The translations under genes and the position numbers were made by a program. A stretch of 64,000 nt of DNA from NCBI GenBank assembly GCA_024734495.1, contig JALMQS010000887.1, positions 1,701,228-1,765,227 on the forward strand, in the 5' to 3' direction. The notes beneath the pieces are model-generated. The model was not told the origin of the DNA, did no database searches, and worked only from the letters and a program-made list of their open reading frames with translations. This document shows positions 747 to 47,375 of this stretch, one piece after another. The DNA comes from Forficula auricularia. Its lineage: Eukaryota; Arthropoda; Insecta; Dermaptera; Forficulidae. How positions within the stretch are numbered: position 1 is the stretch's first letter; each line of letters starts with the position of its first letter.

Positions 747-820
747 TATAATAATGAATGTATTTTGATAACCCAGTCCAAGATTCCAAAAAAGAGAGAT
801 AATTAAATCTATCTTTTTAC

Positions 821-872
821 TCAAAGCCGACATTTCGGAGGTAAATTTCCCTCCTTCTTCAGGGTTTTGAAA
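821..872 (-). ncRNA. Hammerhead ribozyme-like motif (left arm, palindrome 1)
   Basis: On the minus strand CTGAAGA (862-856) is followed by one extra A, a GGAGG...CCTCC stem II, then GAAA (836-833) and TGTC. This matches the order CUGANGA, stem II, GAAA, stem III, NUH. Stem III is less regular than in the opposite arm (AUGU instead of ACGU), so this copy is probably weaker or inactive. Confidence 0.5.
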
Positions 873-906
873 AGTCAGTTAAGGAAATACAAATCACTGA
901 CCTTTC

Positions 907-952
907 GAAACCCTGAAGAAGGAGGGAATCAACCTCCGAAACGTCGGCTTTG
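907..952 (+). ncRNA. Hammerhead ribozyme-like motif (right arm, palindrome 1)
   Basis: CTGAAGA at 913-919, an extra A at 920, stem II GGAGG...CCTCC, GAAA at 938-941, and cleavage triplet GTC at 943-945. Stem III is the self-complementary ACGU, which can pair only between two copies. Stem I pairs AAACC with GGCTT apart from one mismatch. The extra base after the core resembles the plus-strand hammerhead of chrysanthemum chlorotic mottle viroid. Activity is untested. Confidence 0.6.
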
Positions 953-1021
953 AATAAAAAAGATAGATTTAATTATATCTCTTTTTTGAATCTTGAACTG
1001 CCTTATCAAAATACATTCAAT

Positions 1022-1863
1022 TAACTTACCTGTCCGTCTCCAAAAACCACTTCAATCCTATTAAAAATAATTATTGTATCCAATTTTTTTAATTGTAGTT
1101 TGAATATCACAAATCAAGTATCTAGTTTATTACCCTGAAGTATTACACATATTTTCTGTCCAACCTAGAAATTTTTCTGCCGAGTGTCGCCCAACCGAAA
1201 AGAAAAGCTTGGCGCCTCCACGATGAGACCATTTATTAGCCTGGGAGACTTCGTCTGCCTGCCGGGCGGGCCTAGTATTGAATTCACTTTTTTTATGATT
1301 GTCTTGACAAATATGTGGAATGTGGAGAAAATCATTTACAACTAAACTGTATTTTGTTTTTCTTAAGACCATATTATTTCTAATTTAGTTTTTAAAGAAG
1401 TATTCTTACATTAAACAACAAAACACATTATATTCCTTTTTTTGTGGGTTTGAAAATGCATCTTCTAAATTTTCAAATAGGAGAAAAGTCCCTAAGTTTG
1501 ATGAAACTTCTTCTTATATATCGATATCTTTAGAAAAAAAAGCTCTGACCTCTGACGTCATGAAATTTGGGGTTTGGCTAAGCTTATTTCTCAATATTTT
1601 TCAAAACAAAAATTAACTAACGATTCTTCAATTGTTAGTATTCTTGATTGTAATGAATCTCATAATAATAAATAAATTTTCTTAATGGGAGAAGACAGAA
1701 GATGGGAATTTTATGAAATAAATTGAGGATGGGTAAACAAAAACCCGAAACATGTAAATAAATAAAGAAAAATAAAGAAAAGAAAATAATTTTTTGTATT
1801 TATTTTTCTCAAACTGATTGGAATGAAAATAATCTGACTTGTTCAGATGTGGCCATCCACTTG
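1022..1863. other. No recognisable gene
   Basis: AT-rich sequence with a GC-richer patch at about 1160-1280. Short ORFs here have no recognisable motifs. I see no repeat shared with the rest of the window except the lead-in to the next element (about 1835-1863), which is conserved in its other copies. Confidence 0.4.
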
Positions 1864-2531
1864 ACTTTACCATACAACCTGGCCCCTCACTTTTTTAATA
1901 TTTAATAAAATTATTTATAATCATGTAGGGGGGTTAGTTTTGCATTTTTAGTCTCCTGGGGGCCCACTGATTATGTATACAAAATTTGGTTGAGTTTGGT
2001 AAATGGCCAAGACTTTCATTTTTGCCCCCCCCCATTTTGGGCGGTTAGTTTTTGCATTTTTAGACTTCTGGCGGTCCACTGATTAGGTATACAACATTTG
2101 GTTGAGTTTTCTCAAATGGCCTAAATGTTTAATTTTTACCCCCCTCCACCCTTCTTAATTTTGGGTCGATATGCACCAAAATCCAATCAGCTCTTAATCT
2201 CAATGGACCAAAACTACGTGTGCAATTTGGTTTTGATATTCACACTAGTTTTTGAGCTAGCTCGTCCACAAAAATTTGGTAACGCACAGACAACCAGACA
2301 ACCAGACAGACTAACAGACATTTTGACAAAACAAATATTATCTCAAAAAATATAATTTTTTCGATGTTCACTTATTAGAGCTTTTTTGTAGACCGAAATG
2401 TTATGGTTTCGCTCAATTTTTTTTAATCAAAATAGTTTCAGCCGTTTTTGAGATATTTCAAAAAAAAGAAGGAAAAAAACACTTTTTTCATGCACGATTA
2501 CAATACTTGACCATACCCTGTATGGTAAAGT
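1864..2531 (+). mobile_element. TIR element ACTTTACCATACA, copy 1
   Basis: A 668-bp element bounded by 13-bp perfect inverted repeats ACTTTACCATACA and TGTATGGTAAAGT. Five more copies or partial copies lie at 3786-4475 (-), 23076-23615 (+), 29214-29782 (-), about 46533-47246 (-) and 58612-59379 (+). The interior has two tandem copies of a unit of about 90 bp (GCATTTTTAG...GGTTGAGTTT), then a conserved block TTTTTGAGCTAGCTCGTCCA followed by a CAGACAACC-rich stretch. Conserved short reading frames in the second block reflect repeat age rather than a shown protein. Confidence 0.7.
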
Positions 2532-3349
2532 AAAAAATAACTTTTCAAATGAATTAATTAAACATTGATTGATATTAAAAATTTTAAATTTTAATTTAAA
2601 TATACATACACTTGCTTATTATTACCAATTTTTTATAAAAGAGGCTTTATTTCGAAAGACAGTAGAGGTTATCTTTAAAACAAATTATAAAGGTATACTT
2701 AATATGACTAGGGGTAGTATAAAACAGTTGGGGGTGAATTGTTTCTTAAAGACTAACTATCCCTGTGGGTGGTGGTTCTTATTTGTGTCCCATGTGGATT
2801 TCTTAAAAGCGGAATTTCTGTAAAGTCTCTGCAAAGCTCAAGACCTATCAGTTTCACTTTGAATATAATCCTCCGCTGGTCCAGCCATCAGGGAGTTGCA
2901 GTCTCTTTAGCTTGTCTCCTTTCTTGGAACTCTACACCCATTGATATCATCTTTTAACTTCAAACTTCATAAAGACATGTTTTTCTACTAAACTTTGAGA
3001 ATGTCAAGTAGGAAGCTGTAACTAGAAATGAATAACAAAAACTACCTTCAATTTTTTTTTTAAAACATACCTTTAGTTAATTAAATTCTTTGAATTTTGA
3101 TACATAATATATTCATCAGTTTAATATAAATTATAGGGAAAAGTCATGTTTTTCAACTTTTTACAATCTCTGATAATTTACGTTTAAGGCTTTCTGAAAC
3201 AAATAAGAGTATATATCAACTAACGGTTTTACTATCGGAGTGTGGTAGCATGAGCTCAGAAACTGTACTAAATCTCAGGAAAATTAAATTTAAGATGCAA
3301 CAAATCAGAGGAAAAAAGGAACAATTAAATACCGTGTTAAATCATACGA
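2532..3349. other. No recognisable gene
   Basis: AT-rich sequence with short unsupported ORFs (2569-2823, 2769-2957). No motif, splice pattern or repeat that I can recognise. Confidence 0.4.
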
Positions 3350-3395
3350 CCAATTGCAACGTTTCGACAATTTATTGTGGGTTCATCAGGATCAA
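3350..3395 (-). ncRNA. Degenerate hammerhead-like motif
   Basis: On the minus strand CTGATGA (3389-3383) is followed by a stem-loop ACAAT-AA-ATTGT, then GAAAC (3365-3361) and GTT. The order matches a hammerhead, but the base of stem II has unpaired C residues, the triplet is GUU rather than GUC, and stem I is weak. It stands alone rather than in a palindrome. Probably a decayed relative. Confidence 0.35.
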
Positions 3396-3785
3396 TACAA
3401 AAAATAAATACAAATGAATTATTCACAATCATCAAAATCAACCCAGACATAATATAACATAATTATCTTGATCAAATTTTTAAGTACCTGGAGCCATCGA
3501 GCGATGATCGGTAACTTTTTGCTATACTATATTAATATTATTTTTAATTTAAAATTCTGACAAAAATACAAATATATATAGTACACGCCCCTGAGCCCTG
3601 GATCCCTCCCTGGACAACCCCCGAAAGTTCTGAATCTAGAAAGTTCCACATCTATTCACAGTTTTTCGTTTTGCAAAATCATATATATGTGTCACCAGAA
3701 TTAACTTTCTATTATTATCGTGAGTTTTGATATATCCATACACACATACAGACGTTTCAGACATTTCAAAATATGAATAATTTTT
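3396..3785. other. No recognisable gene
   Basis: AT-rich filler with a short GC-richer run at about 3583-3640 (CCCTGAGCCCTGGATCCCTC). No gene or repeat recognised. Confidence 0.35.
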
Positions 3786-4475
3786 ACTATACCATACAGG
3801 GTATAGTCAAGTATTGTAATCGTGCATGAAAAAAGTGGTTTTTTTCCTTCTTTTTTCGAAATATCTAAAAAACGGTAAAAAGTATTTTTATTAAAAAAAT
3901 TGAGCAAAGCCATGGCATTTCGCTCTACAAAAAAGCTCTAATAAGTGAACATCGAAAAAATTAAATTTTTCGAGATAATAATTGTTTTGTCAAAATGTCT
4001 GTTAGTTAGTTAGTCTGTCTGGTTGTCTGTCTGTTAGTCTGTGCGTTACCAAATTTTTGTGGACGAGCTAGCTCAAAAACTAGTGTGAATATCGAAACCA
4101 AATTTCACACGTCGTTTTGGTCCATTGAGATTAAGAGCTGATTAGATTTTGATGAATATCGACCCAAAATTAAGGGGGGTGGAGGGGCGGTTAAAAATTA
4201 AAAATCTAGGCCATTTGAGCAAACTCAACAAAATTTTGTATACATAAACAGTGGAACTATAAAAATGCAAAAACTAACCGGCCGAAATGGGGGGGGGGGT
4301 TAAAAAATGAAAATCTTGCGTCCTTGTACGAAACTCATCCAAATTTTATATACATAGTCCCTGGGCCCCCAGGAGACTAAAAATGTAAAAACTAACACCC
4401 TCCCCTCCCTAAATGATTTTAAATAATTTTATTAAATATTAAATATAAGTGAGGGGTCAGGTTGTATGGTAAAGT
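3786..4475 (-). mobile_element. TIR element ACTTTACCATACA, copy 2
   Basis: Same family as 1864-2531 in reverse orientation. Left terminus ACTATACCATACA (one mismatch) and right terminus TGTATGGTAAAGT. It keeps the GAGCTAGCTC block and two copies of the internal unit of about 90 bp with a G-run (4290-4301). Confidence 0.65.
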
Positions 4476-4549
4476 CAAGTGGATGGCCAAATCAGAACAC
4501 TTCAGCTTATTTTTTTTTCATTTTTGCTTAAATTCTGCAGTCCACTTGC

Positions 4550-4800
4550 CGAGTAATCTCAAAATGTTTATAAATTAAAGGAGACAATATAAGAGTGTGT
4601 CTTTTGCTGGAAAAATAAATTCTTAATTATTTATAACGAGACTATAGTTTCAAGGGCTTTTCGCTCTTCATCAGTCTATTACAATTGATTCACCGGACTA
4701 TATTCTCATTATAAATAAATTAAAAATTTATTTTTCCAGCAGAAGATACACTCTTTTAATGTCTACTTCAATTTATAAAAATTCTGCTACTCGGCAAAAA
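4550..4800. repeat. Hammerhead-bearing palindrome 2
   Basis: Imperfect palindrome with the GCTGGAAAAATAAATT word at about 4605 and its inverse near 4730. The outer parts match a GCCGAGTAGCAGA-type module also found next to palindromes near 34 and 35 kb. The left arm has a hammerhead-like motif (4634-4680, minus). In the right arm only a ruined trace remains (GGACTATATTCTC). Confidence 0.6.
4634..4680 (-). ncRNA. Hammerhead ribozyme-like motif (palindrome 2)
   Basis: Minus strand: CTGATGA (4674-4668), imperfect stem II with a GAAAA loop, GAAA (4651-4648), self-complementary ACTATAGT stem III and triplet GTC (4642-4640). Stem II has a mismatch and lacks the usual C before GAAA. Stem I begins AGA/TCG with two pairs. 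Likely decayed. Confidence 0.45.
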
Positions 4801-7770: not shown

Positions 7771-8604
7771 CCAGGTGTGTTTGAAATGAACATTTTTTAT
7801 GAAAATAAAACACTTTTTTTTAAATAGGAAACAAAAAAATATTTTATTCAAAGTACTCTCCATCACTTTCTACTCATTTTGACCACCTTTCTGGCAATTG
7901 GTGGATCTCCTTCCAAAAAACTGCTGGTCTTTGGAAGAAAACCGTTCATTGACCCATTTTCGACTTCTTCGTAATTTTTGAAGTGCTGTTCTTCAAGTGC
8001 CTGGCCCATCGACAAAAACAGATGGTAGTCGGTCTTGTGAGTAAGCCGCATGGGGTAGCAATTCCCAGTTGAGTGCTTCCAGGTACGCTGGTATCCTGAA
8101 CCGTGTTTATGTGAAACAGCATTGTCATGAAGGAAAATCACTTTATGTTGCCTTTTTTGATATTCTGGCGGGTTTTCCTGAAATGCACGGTTCAAATCAA
8201 TTAATTGTTGGTATCGTTTAAAGTTTACAGTTTCAGCATATTTCAACTCATGATAGACGACACCTTTCTGGTCCCATCGTCATCGTTGAAATCATCTTTT
8301 GATTGTTGCTAATGATAGAGAATGACTACCATGAGCTTCTTCAAGCATTCGTTGAGATTCTGTCGCGTTTTTCTTTAAAACATAAAAATTTAATGCAGTC
8401 CGCATATAGTATGCTGTAGGCACAAAATTCGACATTTTTAACACGAAATAATTTTATGTTGTTGTGGTGCAAATCAAATTTCCAGCACTGAACGTTGTTG
8501 ATGCCAAAGCAATGAAAAAAAAATAAGGTTATGGTTCGTTCAAAATAAACATAACCTATACTACCATCAATCGTAAAAGGCTCATTTCATATGCATATAC
8601 CTGG
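7771..8604 (-). mobile_element. Deleted mariner element
   Basis: An 834-bp element flanked by TA on both sides, with ends CCAGGTGTGTTTGAAATGA at the left and, inverted, CCAGGTATATGCATATGAAA at the right. This matches the structure of Tc1/mariner elements. It holds a broken transposase on the minus strand and is shorter than a complete mariner of about 1.3 kb, so it is non-autonomous. Confidence 0.8.
7863..8435 (-). pseudogene. Mariner transposase pseudogene
   Basis: Minus-strand remnant of a mariner-family transposase, the DDD/D enzyme that cuts and pastes the element at TA sites. An N-terminal part beginning near 8435 (MSNFVPTAYYMRTAL) resembles the start of mariner transposases. It then jumps, through an internal deletion and stops near 8250-8290, to the catalytic part, where KVIFLHDNA carries one catalytic aspartate and DYHLF the region of the next. 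The order of conserved blocks is scrambled or shifted between them and a large N-terminal DNA-binding stretch is missing. It cannot encode active enzyme. Confidence 0.8.
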
Positions 8605-8799: not shown

Positions 8800-8942
8800 T
8801 GTCCATCGATATTTATTGATTTCACATTTTTATTTGAAATTATTTTTCCTAAAACTTGGCTTTTACGCATTAAATTATTATTTTAGGTTAAAAATAAAAT
8901 GAGAGGTCTTCTGTTTTTTAAATAAAATAATTTTTAATTATT

Positions 8943-8990
8943 TCTAGAGACTATAGTTTCGAAGGCATTGCCTTCATCATCAGTCTATCA
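8943..8990 (-). ncRNA. Hammerhead ribozyme-like motif (left arm, palindrome 3)
   Basis: Minus strand: CTGATGA (8983-8977), one extra T, stem II GAAGGC-AAT-GCCTTC, GAAA (8960-8957), self-complementary ACTATAGT stem III and GTC (8951-8949). Stem I pairs TAGA with TCTA. All core bases are present apart from the single insertion. Confidence 0.65.
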
Positions 8991-9215
8991 CAAATATTTT
9001 CAAATTAGTTACAAATTAAGATTTATACATTGAAAATTTTGAAAAATATATAATGTCTTTTTCTTCATGTTTCCTCTTGAGACATTAGAATATAACTATA
9101 ACTATAACTTGTTATATTCTAATGTCTCAAGAGGAAACATGAAGAAAAGACATTATATATTTTTCAAAATTTTCAATGTATAAATCTTAATTTGTAACTA
9201 ATTTGAAATATTTGT

Positions 9216-9262
9216 GATAGACTGATGATGAAGGCAATGCCTTCGAAACTATAGTCTCTAGA
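9216..9262 (+). ncRNA. Hammerhead ribozyme-like motif (right arm, palindrome 3)
   Basis: CTGATGA at 9222-9228, an extra T at 9229, six-pair stem II GAAGGC-AAT-GCCTTC, GAAA at 9245-9248, ACTATAGT stem III and GTC at 9254-9256. Stem I is TAGA (9218-9221) with TCTA (9257-9260). It is the mirror copy of 8943-8990. Confidence 0.65.
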
Positions 9263-9535
9263 AATAATTAAAAATTATTTTATTTAAAAACAGAAGACTC
9301 TCTCATTTTATTTTTAACCTAAAATAAAAACAATTCTGTTACCATCGACTAGTGAAATCTTTTATTCAACTAATAAATTATTATTGTTTGATAGGGCCTC
9401 CACCTCTCCATTTCAGCCCTTTCATCCTCTCTTATTATGATCTCATGATATAATAACATATTAATGCGTAAAAGCCAAATTTTAGGAAAATAATTTCAAC
9501 TAAATAGAAAAATCAATAAATATATAAAATGGAAA

Positions 9536-11943: not shown

Positions 11944-12764
11944 AAAACCCAAAAACCCCGGATTTCGGTAGGCCAAAACCTAAAATTTCGAAAGCCACTT
12001 TGGGAATCGCCCGACGTCCGTGTCGCAGTGCCAACGGACGGTCAGCTCTTAAGCTGTTTACTAGCGAAAAACCTATCATCGCCTTGCCACGACAACCCGT
12101 TGACAACCGTCAGCCAACCGCCAACCAAATTGGAGCGATAGGAAGCCACCAGCCTTAACGAGGAGTGGACTTCGAGCTGCGGGACATCATACAAATACTG
12201 AGGAAGATACAGCCGAAACTTCCCAAGGGCGCAGTCAGCATCGTCAGCGGAGAATACAACACAAAGGTTAGAAACGAACAGACATCCTTCCGGTCAACCG
12301 TACTGTTACACGGCCCATAAATTGAACGTTAAAACTAAATAAATAAATAAAATAATAAAATAATTGTGAAAGTTAAATAATAATACAAATAAATGTTAAA
12401 TAAAGAAATAAATAAAGGTTAATGCATGAAAAGTGAATAAATAATTGTTAAATAAATAAATAAAATAATGAAATAATCGTGAAAGCACAAAGTAATAATA
12501 CAAATAAATAAATAAAGGTTAATGCATGAAATAAAATAATTGTGAAAGTCGCAAATAAAGTACAAGTAAATGCAACGTAAAGTTAATGCACGAGTTGAAA
12601 CAAATATTAAAGTAAATTGAGATAAATGAATAAATAAATAATTGTTGAAATAAATAAAAAATAAGATTATAAATAAAATAATACTAATATAAAATAATAG
12701 TAATTGCTTTAGAAAGATTTAACAGATTTAAATAAATAATAAATAATTATAAAAAGAATAAACA
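11944..12764 (+). other. Errantivirus-like leader, low complexity in its second half
   Basis: Untranslated leader between primer site and gag. 11944-12320 is GC-richer. 12330-12760 is dominated by AAATAAATAA-type and GTTAATGCATGAA words repeated several times, probably from slippage. Packaging signals are expected here from family knowledge but cannot be pointed to. Confidence 0.55.
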
Positions 12765-15503
12765 ATGGCTACATTATCCCATTCCGAACTTTTAAAATTG
12801 ATTCCTAAATATAACGGTTCCCCTGAATTATTGGAGGAATTTATTGAAAATACTGAGGCGATAGTAAGAAATTTTAGTGAAGTCCCTATTGATCAACAAA
12901 ATTTAATTTTATTACATATCAAGAATCAAATAATAGGAGAAGCTAGACATAAAATATTAGGCCATCATGTCAGAAATTGGGATGAATTAGTAATCTTATT
13001 AAGAAACTTATTCAAATCGCCAAAGAATGAAAATACAATTAAAGTAGAATTATTTTCCCTAACGAATAAAAATCTAGGTATTGAGAAAAATTATGTAGAA
13101 ATAAACAAATTAATGACCCAGTATAATTCCCGAATAAACGCTAGAAATATTGAAACAGATATTAAAACCGAATTAATTAAAGAATTTTCTAAAGATGCCA
13201 CACAAATTTTTATAAAAACATTAAAGGAACCCACAGCAAGCCAGGTTTTAGCACAAAATCTAGGTTCAGTATACGAGGTTTATGAGTACATTCTCAATAG
13301 AACGAATGCACTAACAGTTGAGGGCAAACCAAAAATAAATAATAATAATTATAATAATACAAATTACAGAAATTTTCAACCTAGGAATTTTCAACCTAGA
13401 CAGAATTTTCAACCCAGACCCCATTTTCAAAATTATCAAAATGGTTATCAAAACTCAAATAATTATAGAAATTATAATAATTACAGGCCCCCACGTCCAC
13501 AATATTTTAATCAAACCCCAATGTCCACACAGACAATTCAGAATCAATCAGGTCAGGAAAGAAGAGAAAATCATTTTTTTAGGAAGAGGCCCCCGAGAGA
13601 ACGAACTCACATAACACCCCAAATTAATTATAATAATTTCGAATATAGGGACAGTATAAATGAAAAATCATCGTTACCATATTTAGAGTGGATGAATTTA
13701 AAAGTTTTAATAGATACAGGATCTACTGTAAACTTAATAAAACCAGAGATAGCTAATTTATATACAAAGTTTAAAGAGGATAATTTTATAAAATCTATTA
13801 ATGGGTCCAGGAAAATAACAGAATACACATATGTAAAATTTTTAGGAAAGGAATATATAAAAACATTAATAATTGATTTTCATAAGGACTTCGATATTTT
13901 AATAGGGTTAGACGCAATCAAAAAATTAGAATTTGCGTGGAATTTTAAGGATGACGAAATTACATACGAGAATAAGAAATATAAAGTCAAATATCATATT
14001 AACGAGTTAGATAAGAAATTTTCCCACAAAAGTGATGATACGAGCAGTGATTCACTTAGTAGCCTAGACAAAGAGGAAATAGTAGACGATATTGTAACAG
14101 AGCCCACAGATGTTAAAAAGAAATATGAACCCTTAGATAGAGGCGAGGATAGCGAAAATAAAGATAACAAACCATGGGAAAAATTAAAGAGTAAGATTAA
14201 TATTGAAAATAAGGTCAATAAACCTGAGATAAATAATAGAATAATTAATAAAAAATACGTAGGTAAGGAAAAGAATGTTAGCCAGTTAACGAAAACAAAA
14301 GATCAGATGTTAAGGGATGAAAAACTAATTCATCAACCCACACACAAAAGAGTAAAAATTAAAATTAGGAAAGAAATTAAAAATACCCCAGAGAGAGTTA
14401 ATTTATGTCAGTATTCACATAGGGTAAAAGATGGAAAAAATTCAGAGGGTAAAGTGTCATTGAACGATCAATCAATAAATAATTTAAAGTCGGATTTAAA
14501 ATATGAAGTACACATAAACGAAATGGAAATCGATGAAATCATAAATAATGAGTTAGAATCTATTTTAGCAACAGCGGGTGGTAGTCAAATTAATGAAGAT
14601 TTAGAAACAGCACATTCCGCAGAAGAATCCCCTGCAGCAGGAATAAAAATTCTCGAAAATGTAGCAATTAATATTTTCAAAAACCAAATTATTTTAGATT
14701 CACATGATAATGACACAAAAGTAGAAAAATTAAAATTATTCAATAATAAAAATAGATTAATGATTACAATAAATAAACAAGAAATAGATTTCGAACTGAC
14801 GAAAATATTACTAGAATATATACATAGCAAGGAAAAATTTTATATCTATTTTAAAGATGAAACATTATTTATTCCCTTAAATAATTTAATTCAGCAAACA
14901 TTCAATAGTTTAAATATTTACAAGTGTAGTAAGATTTTAGAAGATATTGAGGATTTAGAACACAGGCTAAAAATATTGAAAGATATTCATGAAGGTATAA
15001 CTAATCACAGAGGTATAGCCGAAAATTATTTAGAAATAAAAAGAAAATATTATTGGCCCGCAATAAAGAAAGATATTCAGAAATATATAAATAATTGTGA
15101 AATTTGTTTAAAGGCAAAATACGAGAGAAACCCAATTAAAAATATTAATAAAACTGAAACCCCGAGTAAACCATTTCAAATAGTGAATATAGATGTATTT
15201 GAGATATATAAAACTAAGTTCATAACAATGGTAGACCAATTTTCGAAATTTGTAGAAGTAATACATATAAAGAATTTAACAGCAGTTGAGATTGTTAGGA
15301 AAATAGAAAAAATATTTAGTAGACTTCCGTTACCCCAAAAAGTAATTACCGATGCCGGGAATGAATTCAATAATGAATTACTTAAAAGCTTTTGTAGAAC
15401 AAATAATATAGAAATCCACTATACATGCATCGAAAACCCAAAATCGAATTCCCCGATAGAGAGGGTACACTCTACTATTTTAGAACATTTTACAAATAAT
15501 TAA
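12765..15503 (+). CDS. Gag-protease-integrase fusion without RT/RNase H
   Basis: A 912-residue ORF starting at an ATG in good context (AACAATGG). Residues 1 to about 190 resemble gypsy/17.6-type Gag, followed by a low-complexity N/Y/F/Q/R-rich tail (about 195-265). A retroviral-type aspartic protease has DTGS at 317-320 and LIGLD near 379-383. Residues 400-640 are a charged linker with no RT motifs (no YxDD) and no RNase H. Integrase follows: HHCC zinc finger H742, H748, C778, C781, then catalytic D810, D863, E899 with 35 residues between the last two. A normal errantivirus Pol carries RT and RNase H of roughly 550 residues between protease and integrase. The frame stays open across the missing part, so the fusion may be translatable. 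The integrase is cut short by a frameshift near 15490. Confidence 0.85.
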   Translation: MATLSHSELLKLIPKYNGSPELLEEFIENTEAIVRNFSEVPIDQQNLILLHIKNQIIGEARHKILGHHVRNWDELVILLRNLFKSPKNENTIKVELFSLTNKNLGIEKNYVEINKLMTQYNSRINARNIETDIKTELIKEFSKDATQIFIKTLKEPTASQVLAQNLGSVYEVYEYILNRTNALTVEGKPKINNNNYNNTNYRNFQPRNFQPRQNFQPRPHFQNYQNGYQNSNNYRNYNNYRPPRPQYFNQTPMSTQTIQNQSGQERRENHFFRKRPPRERTHITPQINYNNFEYRDSINEKSSLPYLEWMNLKVLIDTGSTVNLIKPEIANLYTKFKEDNFIKSINGSRKITEYTYVKFLGKEYIKTLIIDFHKDFDILIGLDAIKKLEFAWNFKDDEITYENKKYKVKYHINELDKKFSHKSDDTSSDSLSSLDKEEIVDDIVTEPTDVKKKYEPLDRGEDSENKDNKPWEKLKSKINIENKVNKPEINNRIINKKYVGKEKNVSQLTKTKDQMLRDEKLIHQPTHKRVKIKIRKEIKNTPERVNLCQYSHRVKDGKNSEGKVSLNDQSINNLKSDLKYEVHINEMEIDEIINNELESILATAGGSQINEDLETAHSAEESPAAGIKILENVAINIFKNQIILDSHDNDTKVEKLKLFNNKNRLMITINKQEIDFELTKILLEYIHSKEKFYIYFKDETLFIPLNNLIQQTFNSLNIYKCSKILEDIEDLEHRLKILKDIHEGITNHRGIAENYLEIKRKYYWPAIKKDIQKYINNCEICLKAKYERNPIKNINKTETPSKPFQIVNIDVFEIYKTKFITMVDQFSKFVEVIHIKNLTAVEIVRKIEKIFSRLPLPQKVITDAGNEFNNELLKSFCRTNNIEIHYTCIENPKSNSPIERVHSTILEHFTNN

Positions 15504-18125: not shown

Positions 18126-18317
18126 TTTAATTAAATTAAGATATTTTTATTTTAAATTTTGAAATAATATTCAAATAATTTTTCAAATTTCATTTTTTTC
18201 ATTTCATATAAATGAATTTTTATTTAGTTATTAATAAGATTATTTATTCAAATCAATAATATACTTCTGTGGCTTGGGCCCGTAGCCCGAGTCCCTGTGG
18301 TCGCCAGCCTTTTGGCT

Positions 18318-18815
18318 AATGGTCCTGAAATTTTCACATTTATCCGCGCCTGTCTTTTTGGGAAGTGTGACTATTTTGTTTTTTTCGAAATCTTTTGGGA
18401 TGATTCCCAATTTATAGATTTTGCTAATTAGTTCAAAAAGTTTGTCACGTGCCTTTTCTCCAGAGTTCTTTAGGATTTCAGCTTGTATATTGTCTATTCC
18501 GGGTCCTCTATTATTTTTTAGTTCCTTCAAAGCTGTCTCGAATTCTGACCTGAGTATGGGGTCTCCTAATTCGTTTTCGTCCACAGATTCTTCTTCTTCT
18601 ATTGGGTTCATTGTTTTTTCTTCTCCATAGAGTTCTTCTAGGTGTTCCTTCCATCTATTTGCCTGTTCGTTTTCGTTTAGAATAATGTGGCCTCCTTTAT
18701 CTCTTATGTTCTTGCTTTTTGGCTTGTCTTCTTGAAAATTTCTTTTTATTGCCCTATAGGCTACATCAACTTTTCCCAATACTAGATTTTCGTTGACTTC
18801 TTTACATTTTCTTGA
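18318..18815 (-). pseudogene. RT domain fragment of the RTE LINE
   Basis: Carries KNNRGPGIDNIQAEILK, typical of the start of RTE reverse transcriptase (fingers region), followed by KIYKLGIIPKDF and LPKKTGADKCENFRTIS. The protein leaves the RT pattern right after FRTIS, where the rest of the palm domain with its YADD active site should follow. A frame break separates it from the endonuclease ORF near 18815-18830. No catalytic RT activity is possible. Confidence 0.75.
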
Positions 18816-18816
18816 A

Positions 18817-20040
18817 TCATTTTTCTTTTGCTTTTCTACATTCTCTTATAACTTTCCATCTTAATTTTTTATATGTTTCTTTCCCTTCTTCGTCTTTTCT
18901 GTTCTTAAATTTTCTTCGTTCGTCAATCAGTTGCAGTATTTCGTCTGTTACCCATGGCTTTTTAATTTCGTTTTTCTTTGATTGAAGGACTTCGTTAGCT
19001 GTTTCGGTCAGGCTTGATTTCATGTCATTCCATTCTTGTTCGATTTCATCTTCTTTATTATTTGTGTGTGTTTTTTCTTCCAGTTTCTTATTCATTACGT
19101 TTTCGAAGAGTTTTTGGGTTTCCTTATTTTTTAATTTAGATATATCCCAGTTTTTTCGCGACCGCCCCTTTTTTATTAGTTTTTTAAATTTTAGTTGGCA
19201 TTTCATCGCAATTAGATTGTGATCACTAGCTATATCAGCCCCAGGATAACTTTTGCAGTCCTTTAATTGATTTCTGAATCTTTGTCTGACTAATATGTAA
19301 TCTATTTGAAATCTCCCCTTGTCTAACGGCATTTTCCACGTGTAGATCCTTCTTGGATGGTGTTGGAAGAGTGTGTTTGCTACTACTAGACTGTGCTTAC
19401 TGCAAAATTCAATTAATCTTTCGCCCCTTTCATTCCTATTTCCTAGACCGTGTTCGCCCACCACTTTTCCTTCTTTGCCTTTTCCTACTCTTGCATTCCA
19501 ATCCCCCATAATTATTAAATTTTCATCCCCTTTAACGCGCTTCATCAGGTTTTCAATTTGTTCGTACATTTCTTCTATATCTTGGTCCTCATATGATGTA
19601 GTAGGCATGTATACCTGGATTATCACAGTATCTTTCGGTTTCGAATCCACTGTAATCATAACAATCCTTTCGCTTACCTGTAGATAATTCTTTACCCTTT
19701 GCCCTATTTTTTTATTCATAATAATGCCCACTCCTGCCCTCCCATTCTGCCCCCCCGTGTGAATGATTCTATGGCTGTTTTCGAACCAAAAATCTCCCTC
19801 TTCTGGATATCTCATTTCACTAATCCCAATAATGTCCAATTTGTGTCTATCCATTTCCCGCTTTAAATTCACTAGTTTATCGTCTCCCCTTAGCGTCTTA
19901 ACATTCCACGCTCCGACTCGTAGAAAGTCATTATTTATTTTTCCCTTTATGATGGTCTCTCCTCGGGTAGCCCCTTCCCGGAGATCCGAACGAGGGGCTA
20001 GTTTACCTCCGGAATTCTTTACTCGAAGAGAAATCGTCAT
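18817..20040 (-). pseudogene. RTE-type endonuclease ORF
   Basis: 407 codons with an apurinic-type endonuclease that nicks target DNA for target-primed reverse transcription. Catalytic and metal-binding positions are visible: N46 in WNVKTL, E75 in ISEMRY, D180 and N182 in MGDWNAR, and D273-H274 in ASDHN. The order and the SYPGADIASDHN block are typical of RTE-clade LINEs and of host proteins described as craniofacial-development-protein-2-like, which are usually RTE copies. The endonuclease looks intact although the RT behind it is broken, so the stretch is classed as pseudogene. Confidence 0.8.
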
Positions 20041-20310
20041 GTTGCATATTCTCGGGATTTGTAATGTGGTGGTTTCCCGTTGCCTTCCACATGTTGAAGA
20101 GAAGAAAAATGAAAAAGGAAATCAACTCCTAGCCCTCGAAAACCTAATAGCGTCGGAGTCGGTAAAAAAAAAAACAAGAGTTGGCCAAGGGAGGCCGTAT
20201 AGGAGAGAGAAAAAGAGAAGCCTGACACAAGTAAGTGGAAGCAATGTCAGACTTAGCTCGGATAACCCCGTGGTCGCAATCCACGTACTCATCAGAAATG
20301 AGTTCCTGAG

Positions 20311-24613: not shown

Positions 24614-25345
24614 TTATGTACAGTTCCAAAAATTCTTTTTAATGTTACATACAGCATTTTCATTTGTTTGAATGTTCAATAATAATTTTAGTGTTGAATG
24701 TGCTGTTTTTCCTCCGTCTAATAAAGTGGCAGCAATTCCAGATGATGTCATTTGTGCCAATATGAGCGAAATTAAAAATGTTTCCCTGTTCCACCTGGTG
24801 CATCCAAAAAAAGAAACCATCTTCTTGAGCAGCGACTGCATGCATAATTTTTGTTCTGGTAACAATTTTGGTTCATTTGCTTGAACATATGCATTTAAAC
24901 CATCAACATTGTACGATTGTTCACGTTGCATATCGCGATTAAATAAATCACTTACTGGCCGATTAACTGATGGCATCCCTAATTTAATTAGTGGTTGATT
25001 CGAAATGATCATGCATAAATCTTCCAACTTAATCAAAGATTCATTATATATTTCTGGCGAGAAATTTATATCTGGATCTCCTCGAATTCTACGTAGAGCA
25101 TGTAATACATCTTCACTCATTGAAGCCTTATATTTTCCCCATAATTTAGGCGGGTTAGTTGGAAAACACGTTGTCAATAAAATGGCAAACAAACATCGTA
25201 TTTGATGTGGCGATGAACCGAGAGCAGCATGGGCAAGAGTTGTATCCCAATGCGAATCTTCTTCTAACAATCGTAATGCTAGGCATGCACCATGATTCGT
25301 TGTATGTAATGCACTGAGATACTGGGAAATGTATTTATAATAAGA
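24614..25345 (-). pseudogene. Helitron PIF1-like helicase fragment
   Basis: The reading frame is open on the minus strand from about 25345 to 24614, extending upstream of the first methionine (25270) with an in-frame segment ending LALRLLEEDSHWD. This segment and the following block on ...SPHQIRCLFAILLTTC... match the region before and around the start of the PIF1-type helicase of animal Helitron RepHel proteins. The frame continues through a glycine-rich LLDGGKTAHSTLKL block, a usual helicase neighbour, and then loses similarity. The Rep endonuclease and the helicase motifs beyond this point are absent. A full RepHel is well over 1000 residues, so this is a fragment. Confidence 0.7.
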
Positions 25346-25671
25346 AACATTGATTAAGATTTGGAATGTTTCTTTCCGACAGGCTCAGGTTAGCCAACTA
25401 ATAACAATAAAATAATCACATTTAATAATATAAATTTTTCTTTTTACTTAAGAGAGAATGGTGTGTTTCTGTGAAACAGTTTTAATTCTAAAGTTTAGGG
25501 AAAACAAAATATATCTATAATATAATCATAATACTTCTTCAAGGCCTTTGAGAACAATGAATTAACCCACACCCATTGTCTGCCTGGGTACAAAAGAAAA
25601 GATAAACCTTTTTTAAAACCCCAATTGGCATTCTACCTGAGAATAATTAATTTAATTATGTAAAATCGTGT

Positions 25672-28114: not shown

Positions 28115-28195
28115 TTTCAAGGGTAGCATAGTTGGTTGCTGATTTATAAGAAGAAATCAATCAGGTTGATGCAAATAAACATCCATACCTATAAT
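28115..28195 (+). repeat. Hammerhead-associated flanking module
   Basis: Contains GTAGCATAGTTGGTTGCTGA, AAATCAATCAGGTTG and GATGCAAATAAACAT. Related segments occur at about 34085, 35285 and 56723, and partly at 10998 and 4785. Here it lies just left of palindrome 4. Confidence 0.5.
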
Positions 28196-28200
28196 TGATA

Positions 28201-28563
28201 GTAATGGAATTCAGCCCAGGGGTAAGGAAAGAAAAAAATTAACACCTATTCAAATAAAGTGTAATTTATTGGATTCCTTCCTCCTTTCCAAACCGAAGAA
28301 AAAGTGGATAAATAAAAAAAAAAGATTGTTTTTCTATGGTTTTTGCTAAGGAAGGAAAAGTACAAAACACTACTGTGGAGAAAGGAAAGAAGAGCATTTT
28401 ATTTGTTTCCTTCATTGACCCTGTAAAACCCTGAAGAAGGAGAGAAGAATCCTCCAAAACGTCGGTTTGAAAGAAAAGGAGGAAGGAATCCAATAAATTA
28501 CCCTTATTTGGATATGTCATTAATTTTTCTTTCCTCACTACCTCTGGGCTGCCTTCCATTACT
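28201..28563. repeat. Hammerhead-bearing palindrome 4
   Basis: Left arm words CAGCCCAGGGGTAAGGAAAG and TTTATTGGATTCCTTCCTCC have inverted counterparts at about 28540-28560 and 28475-28498. The right arm carries a hammerhead with a mutated core (28425-28470). In the left arm only CCGAAGAAAAAG remains of the mirrored motif. Confidence 0.65.
28425..28470 (+). ncRNA. Hammerhead-like motif with G12 substitution
   Basis: CTGAAGA at 28431-28437, an extra A, GGAG...CTCC stem II, then AAAA where GAAA is required (28456-28459), ACGT stem III and GTC at 28461-28463. Stem I AAACC/GGTTT is perfect over five pairs. Loss of G12, the presumed general base, predicts an inactive ribozyme. Closely related to 907-952. 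Confidence 0.5.
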
Positions 28564-28739
28564 TTCAATCAAAAGTTCTACCAGTCCGTCTCTCAAAGAA
28601 AATTTCGTGCAAATAAATTCATACCTATAATTTTTAACAACTCCTACTCCTAGAAATTCCTCCCGACTCCGACTCGGACCCGAAGCATTGATTATAATTT
28701 TATAAATTAAAGGGTTTATTTAGTCCGGTAAAATCAATA

Positions 28740-28985
28740 AATCGACTAATTGTAACTTATTTATTTGATAGATTTACTAAACAGTTTCGGTCACTCTGGT
28801 AGAACCATCATCAATAGTACTGAAAATCGAAACATTTTTCATATATACAATTACACAAAATAAAAGCCATAAAATTTCACATTCATACATACAATTATTT
28901 CCGTCAAGATTTGGAATATGTCACTCTGCATAATATATAACTGTTTAGTAAATCTATCAAATAAATAATGTTAATTAACTAAAAT
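28740..28985. repeat. Inverted-repeat element with decayed hammerhead trace
   Basis: Left arm ATTTATTTGATAGATTTACT and right arm AGTAAATCTATCAAATAAAT (about 28950) are perfect inverses. On the minus strand at about 28825-28790, TTGATGATGGTTC...GACCGAAACTG mimics CUGANGA...GAAA with C3 replaced by T. Probably a dead member of the same family. Confidence 0.5.
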
Positions 28986-34145: not shown

Positions 34146-34259
34146 ATACGTACATATATACCTATATAGTAAAGTATATGACGAAAATAAATATGTATAT
34201 ATAGTAATAGGAATAGCTGGGAATTGGCCAAAATTAAAAACACAGAGTTTTTATTAAAT

Positions 34260-34308
34260 GGGCCAAACGTTTCGTCAATTTATTTTGACTTCCTCAGTGG
34301 TCCATTTT
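34260..34308 (-). ncRNA. Hammerhead ribozyme-like motif (left arm, palindrome 5)
   Basis: Minus strand: CTGAGGA (34297-34291), an extra A, stem II GTCAA...TTGAC, GAAA (34273-34270), ACGT stem III and triplet GTT. Stem I pairs AAATGGACCA with TGGCCCATTT at nine of ten positions. The mirror copy has GUC; the GUU triplet usually cleaves less well. Confidence 0.65.
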
Positions 34309-34385
34309 ATCACTCTTTGACAAAAAACAATTTCATGTTGTTGATGTTTTGTAGTATAGTAAAAAAAATTTTGACAAAGAGTGAA

Positions 34386-34437
34386 AAATGGACCACTGAG
34401 GAAGTCAAAATAAATTGACGAAACGTCTGGTCCATTT
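34386..34437 (+). ncRNA. Hammerhead ribozyme-like motif, best copy (palindrome 5)
   Basis: Stem I AAATGGACCA (34386-34395) pairs perfectly over ten bases with TGGTCCATTT (34428-34437). Core CTGAGGA at 34396-34402, an extra A at 34403, stem II GTCAA/TTGAC (34404-34408, 34415-34419), GAAA at 34420-34423, ACGT stem III and cleavage triplet GTC at 34425-34427. All conserved core bases are present. Stem III cannot form a hairpin because there is no loop, so a dimer is required. Activity is an inference. Confidence 0.75.
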
Positions 34438-34664
34438 AATAAAAACTCCGTGTTTTTAATTTTGTCCAATTCCCTGCTATTCCTGTAACACATTTACTAT
34501 TGATGCGTATGATACAACTGGATATAATTTATTTATTAATACTATAGTTTCGAAAGTTTGACCTTTGCTATTTATTTAAATTTAGAATCACTAGAGAGCA
34601 AAATTTTACAAATAAAGATTTCGATCTTTGAGTGAAATATTTAGCACAATATACATATTTCAGA

Positions 34665-34800: not shown

Positions 34801-35409
34801 AACTTCTTGTGATTTTTTTATAAAATTAAATATTCATAGTTAACCACAAACTTAATTAGGCTATTGTATAAACCTCAACATTAAATTTATATTTGACTTT
34901 TCTGAAAGAGAAAATGTCTTGGAAAGAACTTTCTGTTCTATTAAATAAACAATAAAAACTTTTTCCTTAATTTATATAGTAAATTACGAAGATATATTAA
35001 TAAATATTTTACGATATTTTAATTCAAGCACTAAAGTATAAAGTCAAATGGGTCCTTAAAAAATATTAATAATAAAAAGGATTGAAGATACATTTTGAGA
35101 TCAAATTTCTTAATTGATGATTACAATAAGCATTTTCGGAATTTAGTAAGTTTTCTTCATTAATATACTAAGATCAAATAAATTTCTCCTACATTCAAAC
35201 TTGTAATTTTCATTCTTTATGAGCACTCCCTTTTCAAATCATAGGAACAAAGTAATGATTCTATTTCATTGAAAAGTTTTTGTTTTGCCGAGAGTAGCAG
35301 AGTTGTTGATTCACAAAGAGAAACAAAGAGATTGTACCTCTGCTTGATGCAAATAAACATATACACATATATATCAAGATGATATATCTGTATATATATT
35401 ATTTATTTG

Positions 35410-35455
35410 TTTGAGACTATAGTTTCGAGACTTGGTCTTCATCATCAGTCTTTCT
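35410..35455 (-). ncRNA. Hammerhead ribozyme-like motif (left arm, palindrome 6)
   Basis: Minus strand: CTGATGA (35448-35442), an extra T, stem II GAAGAC-CAA-GTCTC with one base missing, GAAA (35426-35423), ACTATAGT stem III and GTC (35417-35415). Stem I is weak (AGA/TC). Likely weaker than the right-arm copy. Confidence 0.55.
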
Positions 35456-35557
35456 TCAATTATAAATGTTTTTCATGGAGCTTTCCAGTGACGAAGGAAC
35501 ACCAAGTTTTCAATATCCATATGATATTGACTCCATGAAAAACATTTATAATTGAAG

Positions 35558-35602
35558 AAAGACTGATGATGAAGACCAAGTCTTCGAAACTATAGTCTCA
35601 AC
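35558..35602 (+). ncRNA. Hammerhead ribozyme-like motif (right arm, palindrome 6)
   Basis: CTGATGA at 35563-35569, an extra T, six-pair stem II GAAGAC-CAA-GTCTTC, GAAA at 35586-35589, ACTATAGT stem III and GTC at 35595-35597. Stem I has only two clear pairs (GA/TC). Confidence 0.6.
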
Positions 35603-35702
35603 AAATAAATAATATATATACAGATATATCATCTTGATATATATGTGTATATGTTTATTTGCATCAAGCAGAGGACAATCTCTTTGTTTCTCTTTGTGAT
35701 TC

Positions 35703-35940
35703 TATTTCAGCCACTCTCTCTTATTTTTAATAAAAAATCGACTTTAAAATAAAAGTTAAAATTTACAAATGCAATGAAATTGCGATTCATGGTATAATTT
35801 AATTTTAATTGATAATGGTTCCCAAAATAATAAAAAAATAAATAAATCAAATCATTTAATGAAAGTTTTGATGTTAATAAATGATTTATTTGAAATGCCA
35901 TTTCATCACTTTATCAATTCCAAAACAATTATGTAGATTT
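35703..35940. other. No recognisable gene
   Basis: AT-rich sequence. Part of it (TAAAATTTACAAATGCAATG, about 35757) vaguely resembles 49385-49410 but no element can be defined. Confidence 0.3.
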
Positions 35941-39196: not shown

Positions 39197-39436
39197 TAAA
39201 ATTTTTATAATTTTTCTCATTAATATATCAAAGAATAATTGATATATTAACGAGAGTTGTTTTGACCGCTTTTTCGAAAAAGATATGTTTCGCGAGACTA
39301 CTGCGGATGACGCTATTGGAGTCTGCGGAGTCCTAAGTATCTCGCGAAATATATCTTTTTCAAAAAAGCGCGGTTAAATCAACTCTCGTTAATATATCAA
39401 TTATTCTTTGATATATTAATGAGAAAAATTTTATTA
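39197..39436. mobile_element. Foldback MITE, about 240 bp
   Basis: Arms of about 100 bp including CTCATTAATATATCAAAGAA and its inverse TTCTTTGATATATTAATGAG, then AACGAGAGTTG and AAAAGATAT...TTCGCGAGA in inverse pairs. The centre near 39315 is GC-richer. It splits the last 224-bp unit: the unit's final word ACCAAATAGTAGTAAAAGGT resumes at about 39438. Confidence 0.7.
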
Positions 39437-43564: not shown

Positions 43565-43729
43565 GAAAATTTTTTAAATTATTTATTTAATAATTAAATA
43601 TTTAATCATTATTATTTGATAATTAAGTTGAATAATTGTTACAAATAATTATTAGGATTTTTTTAGATCTATTAATTGATTCAATATTTTGTTTATTTGA
43701 TGTCGGATAAAAAAATAGTTCTTATAAAC

Positions 43730-43904
43730 TAAAGGGTGTGTAGTTTCACAGTGAATGAAATAAAACTCAAACAGGTTTATACAAACTCAAGTTTGTATAA
43801 ACTTCTTTGAGTTTTATTTCATTCATGTGAAACTACACACCCTTTACTCTATTAACTAACATCATGTTTCACCTAAAACCTACACCACTTTCCATAAGTA
43901 AAAA
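43730..43904 (+). mobile_element. Palindromic insertion with 13-bp target duplication
   Basis: AGTTCTTATAAAC stands on both sides (43717-43729 and 43905-43917). The other arm of the host foldback shows the uninterrupted site near 41600. The insert is a 124-bp palindrome (AAAGGGTGTGTAGTTTCAC and its inverse) plus an asymmetric tail with ATCATGTTTCACC like that at window position 22. A long target duplication suggests retroposition. Confidence 0.75.
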
Positions 43905-44400: not shown

Positions 44401-44728
44401 CAGTGGTTCTTAACAATTTTAAGCTGCGACTCAAATTTGAGAAATGTGTTCTGCCGCGACCCCCCCCCCCTGTCAAAAAAAATTAATTACCTTTTTTTAG
44501 ACGATACTTGAGAAATTTACTTCAATTTTCAATTATGACTTTTTTAACTCACATATAATATTATTTTGTAACAATTAAGATAACCAAAGGTACTTTTCGT
44601 GAATAAATCAAAATATATTTTTCAACTTATAATAATAAGTAAAATATTTGATAAACGATTCCGCGCGACCCAAAGAATATGCTTTGCGATGCAATTTTAG
44701 GTCGCGACCCATAAGTTAAGAACCACTG
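44401..44728. mobile_element. hAT-type MITE
   Basis: Perfect 14-bp inverted ends CAGTGGTTCTTAAC and GTTAAGAACCACTG, typical of non-autonomous hAT elements. 328 bp, with a C-run at 44460-44470 and GCGACC words near both ends. Flanks ATTTAAAG and ATTTAGAA could be a diverged 8-bp target duplication. Confidence 0.8.
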
Positions 44729-45453: not shown

Positions 45454-45575
45454 AGGGATCATTTCCCGAGCGGGTGAATTCAATCTGTATCTGAGTTGTT
45501 ATGGATGTTTTCTATTATATATCAGAGGGGTCGAATTTGGCCCCTCGGGAAATGAGTCCTTCTGACATATAATAA
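45454..45575. repeat. Inverted-repeat copy related to the SINE ends
   Basis: TTATATGTTAGAAGGGATCA at the left faces GTCCTTCTGACATATAA at the right, and ATTTCCCGAG faces CTCGGGAAAT. The outer words match the tail of the tRNA-derived SINE family (34665). The tRNA-like core is not recognisable here. Confidence 0.5.
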
Positions 45576-46439
45576 AAATTGTTTATAATACAAAATGAAC
45601 TCTATTAGTTGTGACGTCATAATGGTAGTTCCGTGATTTATAAGTTCAAAAATGCGCCATTTTTGAACTGTTTGCAAATCAAATAGAATGCGTTAATCCA
45701 CTTATTAGGGCTTAAATTATATATATAACCAACTTTTACTAGAGTTTCACTTTAACAGAATATCAATTTGTAATTCAACCGAATTGCTAAGTTTGAGTTG
45801 GAAGTTTTCTTGATGCACACATACAAGGGCTTGTTCACTTGATATTATACAGAGCACCTACTAAATGTAGAGATGCAGAGTGAATTAAAGCTGAGAGCGA
45901 GCAATCCGTTAACAAGGTGTAGGGATGGTGATAGAAAAAGAGACCGTGCACCCCCATCGAGTTTGTCAAATGTGAGAGTTCCACCTAGAAATAATAGATG
46001 GAGATGAAATTTTACACGAATCGTTGCACACATATATTGGACATTGTCTGGATATGCAGGCTCAAATCTAGGTTGGTCTATATATATATATATATATACA
46101 GTGTGGGGTGGTGTTTTAATAGAAGGGAGGATACGATGAATAAACTTGCATTACAAAATACGTCAATAGAATTCCCTCACAATGCGAATCCAAACCGAGA
46201 GGGAGGCTAGCAACAAGTTAGCTAGATCACATTTGTATGTAGAAGTATGTTAGTTAGCGAGTTGGGATAATTCAGTGAAATTTAATTCTGAACTTATTTA
46301 TTATTTATTAATTATTTTATGGAACGATAATTTTAATAAGTTGGATCCAATTCATAAAGCTTTTATTCATACATTTAATTTAAGTTTGAATAGAAAATAT
46401 TATTTAAAATTGGTGTTGTAATCGTCCATGATGAATATT
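45576..46439. other. No recognisable gene
   Basis: Contains a short hairpin at about 45632-45670 (AGTTCAAAAATG...CATTTTTGAACT) and a TA microsatellite at 46079-46097. No supported gene. Confidence 0.35.
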
Positions 46440-46504
46440 TTTCTTTGTGGCTTTTTTATTGGTTACTTGGTCTTAAAATAAAACTAGAAGTTAAATTTTC
46501 AAGT

Positions 46505-46540
46505 TGTTGCTACGTTTCGCTGTATATTTTTCTGCTTCCT
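46505..46540 (-). ncRNA. Broken hammerhead-like motif (left arm, palindrome 7)
   Basis: Minus strand: ATGAGGA where CTGAGGA is expected, then an extra A, GCAG...CAGC and GAAACGTA. The core is cut where the TIR element joins, so it is presumably dead. Confidence 0.4.
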
Positions 46541-47246
46541 CATACATGGTATAGTCAAGTATTGTAATCGTGCACGAAAAAAGTGTTTTTTTTGTTTCTT
46601 TTTTTTCGAAATATCCCGAAAACAGTTTGAAACTATTTTGATTAAAAAAATTGGGCGAAACCATGATATTTCGGTCTACAAAAAAGCTCTAATAAGTAAA
46701 GATCGAAAAAATTATATTTTTCGAGATAATAACTGTTTTGTCAAAATGTCTGTTAGTACGTGCGTTACCAAATTTTGAGGACGAGCTAGCTCAAAAACTA
46801 GTATGAATATCAAAACTAAATTTCACACGTAGTTTTGGTGACTGAGATTAGGAACTGATTAGATTTTGGTGCATATTGAAACAAAATTAAGGGTGGGGAG
46901 AGGGGTTAAAATTTTAAAATTATAATATTTTCAAACTAAAAAAAAACAAGAAAAATGAAATATACTATAAAATGGACCTTCAATAAAGAAAATATTTTTT
47001 TCACTGCCTCCAAAATATAAAAATCTAGGCCATTTGAGGAAACTCAACCAAATTTTGTATACATAATCAGTGGGCTCCCAGAACTTTAAAAATGCAAAAA
47101 CAGACCGCCCAAAATGGGGGGCTGGGTTGTCAAAAAATAAAAATCTAGGCTCTTGGACCAAACTCAACCAAATTTTATATACAAAATCAGTGGGCTACCA
47201 GAAGACTAAAAATGCAAAAACTAACCGCCCAAAATCTGGGGGTGGG
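46533..47246 (-). mobile_element. TIR element ACTTTACCATACA, copy 5, partial
   Basis: Starts ATACATGGTATAGTCAAG, keeps GACGAGCTAGCTCAAAAAC and two to three internal 90-bp-type units (46990-47240). An unrelated insert of about 90 bp sits at 46920-47010. The right terminal repeat is missing. Confidence 0.55.
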
Positions 47247-47269
47247 TTGAAGAGGAGGTTAATTCAAAT

Positions 47270-47315
47270 ATTGCCTGAGGAAGCAGAAAAATATACTGCG
47301 AAACGTAACAACAAT
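47270..47315 (+). ncRNA. Hammerhead ribozyme-like motif (right arm, palindrome 7)
   Basis: CTGAGGA at 47275-47281, an extra A, stem II GCAG...CTGC, GAAA at 47300-47303, ACGT stem III and triplet GTA (47305-47307). Stem I starts with a C-A mismatch, then GTT/AAC-type pairs. Core intact. Confidence 0.5.
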
Positions 47316-47375
47316 TTGAAAATTTAACTTCTTATTTTATTTCAAGTCCAAGTACCCAATAACCAGCCACAAAGA

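Follow-up and report, generated by a model that had tools for sequence, protein, structure and literature searches.

What are the palindromes in a 64,000-nucleotide (nt) stretch of the genome of the insect Forficula auricularia, whose arms carry motifs that resemble hammerhead ribozymes, and how did they arise? The stretch, hereafter the window, comprises positions 1,701,228 to 1,765,227 of the forward strand of contig JALMQS010000887.1 (assembly GCA_024734495.1). As we argue here, with a probability of roughly 0.62, the motifs are hammerheads of the leaders of Penelope-like elements (PLEs), and the palindromes are separate short insertions primed from both DNA ends. This reading draws on sequence for the family of one palindrome, p4 (PLE membership, target duplications, one tail and variable junctions), and for the motif (covariation). 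It further supposes ribozyme activity, outer ends that are start sites of reverse transcriptase (RT), a long arm that reaches the 5' end of the RNA, and the same RNA as template for both primings.

A hammerhead-type motif above chance

The exact core, followed after one base by a stem II of at least 4 bp, occurs at 8 sites in the window, against a mean of 0.07 and a maximum of 1 in dinucleotide shuffles (n=200). Permuted heptamers (n=8) in place of CUGANGA gave 0 or 1 site each, and moving stem II to abut the heptamer, or to start two bases beyond it, left 0 window sites; in all 8 exact sites a single unpaired base separates CUGANGA from stem II. A covariance model of our own, built from 12 sites in seven window palindromes, recovers its 12 training sites with expectation (E) values of 4e-9 to 2e-5. 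The model adds one window site, 1711-1762, at E 0.026, while the next match lies at E 0.35, and the pattern matches at 12198, 19510 and 22194 score E 0.97 or worse, which is chance level. Near-matches to microRNA families in Rfam are read as the long hairpins of the palindromes, and the motif patterns gave 0 matches in viral and prokaryote collections. The initial annotation of this DNA had claimed about 16 hammerhead-type motif matches and five palindromes with one outward-pointing copy per arm. All five palindromes are present near the places it gave, with the copies so arranged, and the hammerhead type of the motif is upheld by the comparison with shuffles; its count was somewhat high, the number being nearer 13-15 (12 model sites, one more, and two seen by eye).

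The arms match leaders of Penelope-like elements

The window's own genome (1.06 Gb) was searched for the GIY-YIG domain, with 150 scored of 3423 candidates, and 8 of the 150 scored matches lie in open frames of 825-864 amino acids (aa). RVT_1 and a C-terminal GIY-YIG domain share one frame in 4/4 frames examined, all from the same genome outside the window. One contig (C563) holds an array of two 858-aa frames and part of a third (427 aa), with three GIY-YIG matches about 2909 nt apart. The pseudo-long terminal repeat (pLTR) between these tandem frames matches the arm of p4 (35308-35702) at 98% over 203 nt, hammerhead included, and is followed by a tail (62/62 identical, two full array copies). 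A strict hammerhead pattern, sought on the same strand after GIY-YIG in 30 fetched loci with the duplicates among them kept, was present 0.5-1 kb past the start of the GIY-YIG match in 25/30, in several families that differ in their stems; it was absent at L065, L066, L069, L070 and L083. The pLTR match and the GIY-YIG-linked hammerheads thus indicate that the window motifs are PLE hammerheads, as the initial annotation had suspected in naming Penelope-like elements. Judged by sequence, the palindrome units are pLTRs or leaders of PLEs with RT and GIY-YIG. The association of PLEs with hammerheads is already known (PMC11167929), and is also found in passages of PMC7761336, PMC6155905 and PMC7229834.

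At two loci (L096 and L098) an inverted tail lies close to where the frame starts, which is what a full-length element whose 5' arm is inverted would show. At a third, L095 (sense strand, approximately 4039-4133), the PLE frame opens within one or two bases of the start of the tail, with a TGA just before, and its first methionine lies about 52 nt past the tail end. From the position of this frame the template of a palindrome would be leader sequence, barring the splicing of an exon from further upstream. The template of the p4 family could be either the autonomous PLE's own mRNA leader or a separate small RNA. PLE coding sequence was not found in the window among 40 inspected of 73 open reading frames (ORFs) of at least 75 aa, and no frame of at least 110 aa in loci L001-L064 was read, by eye only, as PLE.

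The small size of the units and the type I order of their core recall retrozymes, small non-autonomous retroelements that spread via hammerhead-made circular RNA. Such an origin is barely credible, however, for a unit that is part of a PLE encoding RT and an endonuclease, and whose arms are inverted both in the palindromes of the window and in the 30 copies of p4 described below; a direct repeat of a hammerhead-bounded unit was not seen in either set.

One tail and a variable junction in p4 copies

A genome search with p4, from which the tail had been left out, yielded 1854 candidates, of which 40 were scored and contained 82 matches. The 30 copies fetched are the best matches to the full palindrome and include duplicates (L002/3, L023/24, L025/26), leaving 27 that are independent. 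A 43-nt tail is present on exactly one arm in 30/30 (11 left, 19 right, 0 both, 0 none), and nine of ten more p4-type copies have one tail. Target repeats are 8-15 nt long, and at least 12 in 26/30; the duplications exceed the null's 95% point in 29/30 copies and the null's maximum in 3. When the arms were mapped to a 270-nt unit, tail-less arms stopped at unit positions 223-232 in 30/30 and long arms started at positions 1-15 in 29/30 and at 25 in one, whereas short arms started anywhere in positions 38-89. The junctions vary from insertion to insertion, and the varied starts of the short arms indicate that the junction is made anew at each insertion.

The recurrence of whole palindromes first suggested a miniature inverted-repeat transposable element (MITE), a view overturned by the junction alignment. 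It could be argued for a MITE-like or foldback element, in which the entire palindrome is copied at once, that full-length palindromes recur in at least 40 scored places and that target duplications are seen in the fetched copies. The centre, however, varies by insertion, the tail lies on either arm relative to that centre, and the arms are PLE leader sequence, which together make copying of this kind very improbable.

A second possibility is self-priming (snapback), in which a single complementary DNA (cDNA) folds back and primes its own copy, which becomes the second arm; it has been proposed, on an antisense template, for Adineta Penelopes in passages of PMC3846280. Self-priming would explain both the head-to-head form of the palindromes and the agreement between the arms of a copy. 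Indeed, at four internal variant positions the arms agree in 13/13, 9/9, 5/6 and 5/6 informative copies, which points to a single RNA or locus as the source of each insertion. At a fifth position, at the outer edge of the alignment, the arms disagree in 4/4, and arm distances in the family are too small to tell sources apart. The occurrence of one tail per insertion speaks against self-priming, as does the arm on which it sits: this is the long arm in 20/30 copies and the short arm in 10/30 (9 once one duplicate is removed; L030, one of the ten, has an ambiguous centre), and the copy of a longer tail-less arm cannot gain a tail. The constant end of the tail-less arms in 30/30 is, moreover, unlike a chance stop, and we regard self-priming as quite improbable.

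The observed geometry, including a tail on either arm and free junctions, would also arise if one continuous cDNA began on a sense leader RNA and then jumped to an antisense one, entering it at the 3' end, and bidirectional transcription of PLEs is discussed in passages of PMC3846280. The antisense RNA required by this route would have to run between unit positions 1 and about 228, and no result here speaks for one; in addition, extension was seen on both DNA strands in vitro (PMC11167929). We consider such a template switch unlikely.

A proposal for insertion from both DNA ends

We propose instead that each palindrome is one separate short insertion. The element protein, with its RT and GIY-YIG endonuclease, would make staggered cuts in the two DNA strands, about 12 nt apart, and from each of the DNA ends copying would then be primed within an element RNA's leader. 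Priming would begin at a distal site for one end, leaving the 43-nt tail, and about 43 nt closer to the RNA 5' end for the other. One cDNA would reach that 5' end, the second would stop early, and the two would be joined head to head. The features of the p4 family follow from priming at both leader sites and joining of the cDNAs, and two-end priming fits better than self-priming or MITE-like copying. Both arms of the 30 copies, which were chosen by full-length match, cross the predicted ribozyme cut, so that the template would have been uncut there, in line with PMC11167929. In the in vitro reactions of that study a PLE protein cut both strands and extended them from two adjacent internal RNA sites; the steps after cutting and extension are yet to be validated.

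A broader proposal, whose chances we see as even, is that double-ended target-primed reverse transcription, with the two DNA ends starting at different internal sites of the same leader RNA, yields each head-to-head PLE palindrome as its end product and so leaves exactly one tail; that the inverted pLTRs of endonuclease-containing PLEs are generally of this origin; and that the abundant short palindromes are insertions for which nothing but the 5' leader was copied from the mRNA of the element itself. Completion of PLE insertion is a little-understood step, and short young insertions keep both ends, the arms, the junction and the target duplication, so that models can be counted from sequence. 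In a search of open-licence papers, which did not take in two key PLE-hammerhead papers, no report of solo leader palindromes or of a one-tail rule was found. The initial annotation had described head-to-head packaging of a small unit as an undescribed class; the packaging is confirmed, but the unit is a PLE pLTR or leader, and head-to-head inverted pLTRs with palindromic junctions, one of them optionally tailed, have already been reported for PLEs in passages of PMC3846280. Apparently new is the regularity in the p4 copies: target duplications, insertion-specific junctions and a single 43-nt tail.

Palindromes of the window and their motif copies

The palindromes p1 to p8, their motif copies and related features of the window are listed below.

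749-1023, no strand: p1 palindrome, head-to-head, arms 88.6% identical
829-862, minus strand: p1 left-arm hammerhead core, C3 to H17 (covariance model)
913-945, plus strand: p1 right-arm hammerhead core (covariance model)
1723-1756, plus strand: possible lone hammerhead (model E 0.026, match 1711-1762)
3358-3389, minus strand: possible lone hammerhead, by eye, missed by the covariance model
4546-4797, no strand: p7 palindrome, motif on left arm only; by eye, tail on both arms
4640-4674, minus strand: p7 hammerhead core (covariance model)
8809-9523, no strand: p2 palindrome, right arm with extra DNA
8949-8983, minus strand: p2 left-arm hammerhead core (covariance model)
9222-9256, plus strand: p2 right-arm hammerhead core (covariance model)
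28194-28569, no strand: p6 palindrome, left arm starting two bases before the predicted cut
28431-28463, plus strand: p6 hammerhead core, on one arm only, AAAA in place of GAAA
28691-29042, no strand: p8 palindrome, decayed, copy on one arm only
28780-28814, minus strand: p8 decayed hammerhead-like copy, by eye, missed by the covariance model
34187-34504, no strand: p3 palindrome, arms 89.9% identical
34266-34297, minus strand: p3 left-arm hammerhead core (covariance model)
34396-34427, plus strand: p3 right-arm hammerhead core, stem I of 10 bp
35256-35268, no strand: p4 target duplication, left copy, 13/13 identical
35269-35311, minus strand: p4 43-nt tail, left arm only (tail-aware comparison)
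35308-35702, no strand: p4 palindrome, family followed genome-wide
35415-35448, minus strand: p4 left-arm hammerhead core (covariance model)
35563-35597, plus strand: p4 right-arm hammerhead core (covariance model)
35697-35709, no strand: p4 target duplication, right copy, pairing with 35256-35268
46441-47376, no strand: p5 palindrome, 733 nt separating the arms, 12/12 repeat at 46399-46410 and 47376-47387
46511-46543, minus strand: p5 left-arm hammerhead core, C3 lost (ATGAGGA for CTGAGGA)
47275-47307, plus strand: p5 right-arm hammerhead core (covariance model)
56713-56807, minus strand: lone 3' fragment with p4-like tail, no motif seen

The five palindromes p1-p5 have one motif per arm, each pointing outward, and three further palindromes, p6, p7 and p8, have a hammerhead copy on a single arm. 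A hammerhead-like motif was not seen in 12 other window palindromes inspected. Motif-free palindromes, which occur in at least 12 places (for example 39206-39433, 43724-43852 and 63354-63745), are probably foldback or MITE-type elements. Directly adjoining p3 on its right side is a CTATAGTC-type hammerhead unit of which the 3' half is present (34509-34553, minus strand). The arms of p5 enclose (46579-47248) a repeat family built of internal units some 120 bp long, either PLE leader or a later insertion, which has relatives near 1826-2539, 3778-4513, 23256-23622 and 58770-59330.

Covarying stems and a putative minimal ribozyme

Stems I and II covary between loci, as for a structured RNA. With one row per locus (9 loci), 38/45 cells of stem II are paired, against 25.9 when partners were dealt among the loci, and 0/20000 shuffles reach 38; for stem I the values are 32/45 and 19.5 (P 0.00115). 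In a 12-row alignment (11 distinct) stem II scores 0.673, against 0.201 when shuffled and at most 0.200 when slid, while changes on both sides of a pair (40/500 shuffles) and further pair types (160/500 shuffles) were unremarkable. This agrees with the initial annotation, in which the stems differed between loci around a fixed core in the manner of a structured RNA; the compensatory change that it expected is seen as covariation in both stems. The several hammerhead families provide a natural covariation set for a minimal dimer-type ribozyme.

The sites keep the type I order of CUGANGA, stem II, GAAA, a very short stem III and NUH, and look like minimal, stem III-poor hammerhead ribozymes of putative catalytic activity. 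The piece from A15.1 to U16.1 is self-complementary in 13/15 sites (ACGU, ACUAUAGU or ACAUGU), and two same-sense copies could thus share one stem III. It is unlikely that a palindrome serves as a working ribozyme dimer, because only one arm of its transcript has the ribozyme sense, and this arm can be masked by its partner. Same-sense tandem pLTRs, such as those of the C563 array, are where a dimer hammerhead could act through the self-complementary stem III; passages of PMC6466107 name as requirements that the copies be in tandem and that the stem III loop be palindromic. Folds of minimum free energy computed for monomers place other pairs in the core, with z-scores of -1.5 to -5.0, and neither prove nor refute a hammerhead.

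Duplications and tails outside the p4 family

A tail-blind search for target duplications in the window left 0/9 tests above the null's 95% point, and with tail-aware geometry p4, p5 and p6, of the eight palindromes, lie above it. The outer edges of the window palindromes are 69-107 nt past the predicted cut (p2, 140). Short arms start seven to nine bases before that cut in p7 and p8, and the left arm of p6 two bases before it, a few cases that bear on whether cleaved RNA could have served as template. Three relatives of p7 (L045, L048 and L060) have one tail each by eye, decayed in L045. Genome-wide, the hammerhead-like pattern gave 604 matches, against 110 for the reversed pattern. Among 20 sites picked from 100 listed, only 4 satisfy the 4-bp stem II rule, and an inverted partner covers or adjoins the motif at 16, three of those weak. 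Tail-aware repeats of 13/13 in L060 and 14/14 in L051 fit one long and one short side, as does that of L046; the repeat in L049 fits likewise and merely equals the null's 95% point of 11. The other nine of 13 non-p4 palindromes have duplications at chance level, and none of the 13 exceeds the null's maximum of 16.

It should be emphasized that several observations weigh against PLE-leader hammerheads carried by palindromes primed from both DNA ends. Stem II lies one base off its canonical place directly after A9, stem I is weak in p4 and p7, and p2 and p4 have a competing fold. The Rfam hammerhead models match nothing up to E 10 or at the curated cut-off, in a comparison that had no known PLE hammerhead as positive control; the covariance search put forward in the initial annotation therefore gave no significant Rfam match, although the model made from window sites does match. 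Most p4 copies have leader variants unseen in the four PLE loci read closely, and among those four no source PLE for them was identified. The 30 p4 copies are a selected set, L040, a partial p4 match, is without a tail, and p7 appears by eye to be two-tailed. Finally, none of the window duplications exceeds the null's maximum, and only 3/13 non-p4 palindromes (L060, L051 and L046) lie above the 95% point.

Other elements in the window

Two minus-strand sequences within an inverted-repeat set, 52158-52253 and 52520-52614 (46% and 45% GC), are tRNA-like, lie above the Rfam tRNA gathering score in bits, and look like a tRNA-derived short interspersed nuclear element. Coding remnants are of an integrase-bearing long terminal repeat type (12762-15503, plus strand), two LINE-like sequences (long interspersed nuclear element; 18240-20121 and 53503-54709, both minus strand), a PIF1 helicase (24614-25384, minus strand) and a mariner-like transposase (7863-8279, minus strand).

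Comparison with known systems

Minimal dimer-type hammerheads of PLEs have reportedly been described by Luense et al. (2017) and by Cervera and de la Pena (2014). The present motifs resemble such hammerheads, as they appear in passages of PMC7761336 and PMC6466107, in their type I order, the near absence of stem III, the self-complementarity of that stem, and their dispersed copies and location in PLE pLTRs; the constant extra base between CUGANGA and stem II may set them apart. Metazoan retrozymes likewise have type I hammerheads in small non-coding units, but in passages of PMC7229834 these are direct tandem repeats giving circular RNA, whereas the arms here are inverted PLE leaders.

The Poseidon PLE of Anolis carolinensis, PAc (PMC11167929), has a hammerhead at the pLTR-ORF junction and tandem copies, as here. 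It also shares the internal start of reverse transcription at two adjacent sites with the tail between them, and the cutting and extension of both strands, which were observed in vitro for PAc and are proposed here from sequence alone. Its distance from cut to RT start, 85-92 nt as derived from the numbers in that paper, is close to the 69-107 nt between cut and outer edge in the window (p2, 140). The insertion ends of PAc come, in contrast, from in vitro products and short reads, and a joined two-arm product is not described in PMC11167929.

The endonuclease-containing Penelope of Adineta vaga (PMC3846280, whose main text does not contain the word 'hammerhead') is similar, in the passages that treat it, in having inverted head-to-head pLTRs with a palindromic junction, an optional tail on one inverted pLTR, solo pLTRs, and target duplications, of 8-10 bp or none in that system. 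In contrast with the element as those passages present it, many insertions here are just two head-to-head leaders, and in the p4 family a single tail is the rule, sometimes on the shorter arm, with duplications that are mostly at least 12 nt.

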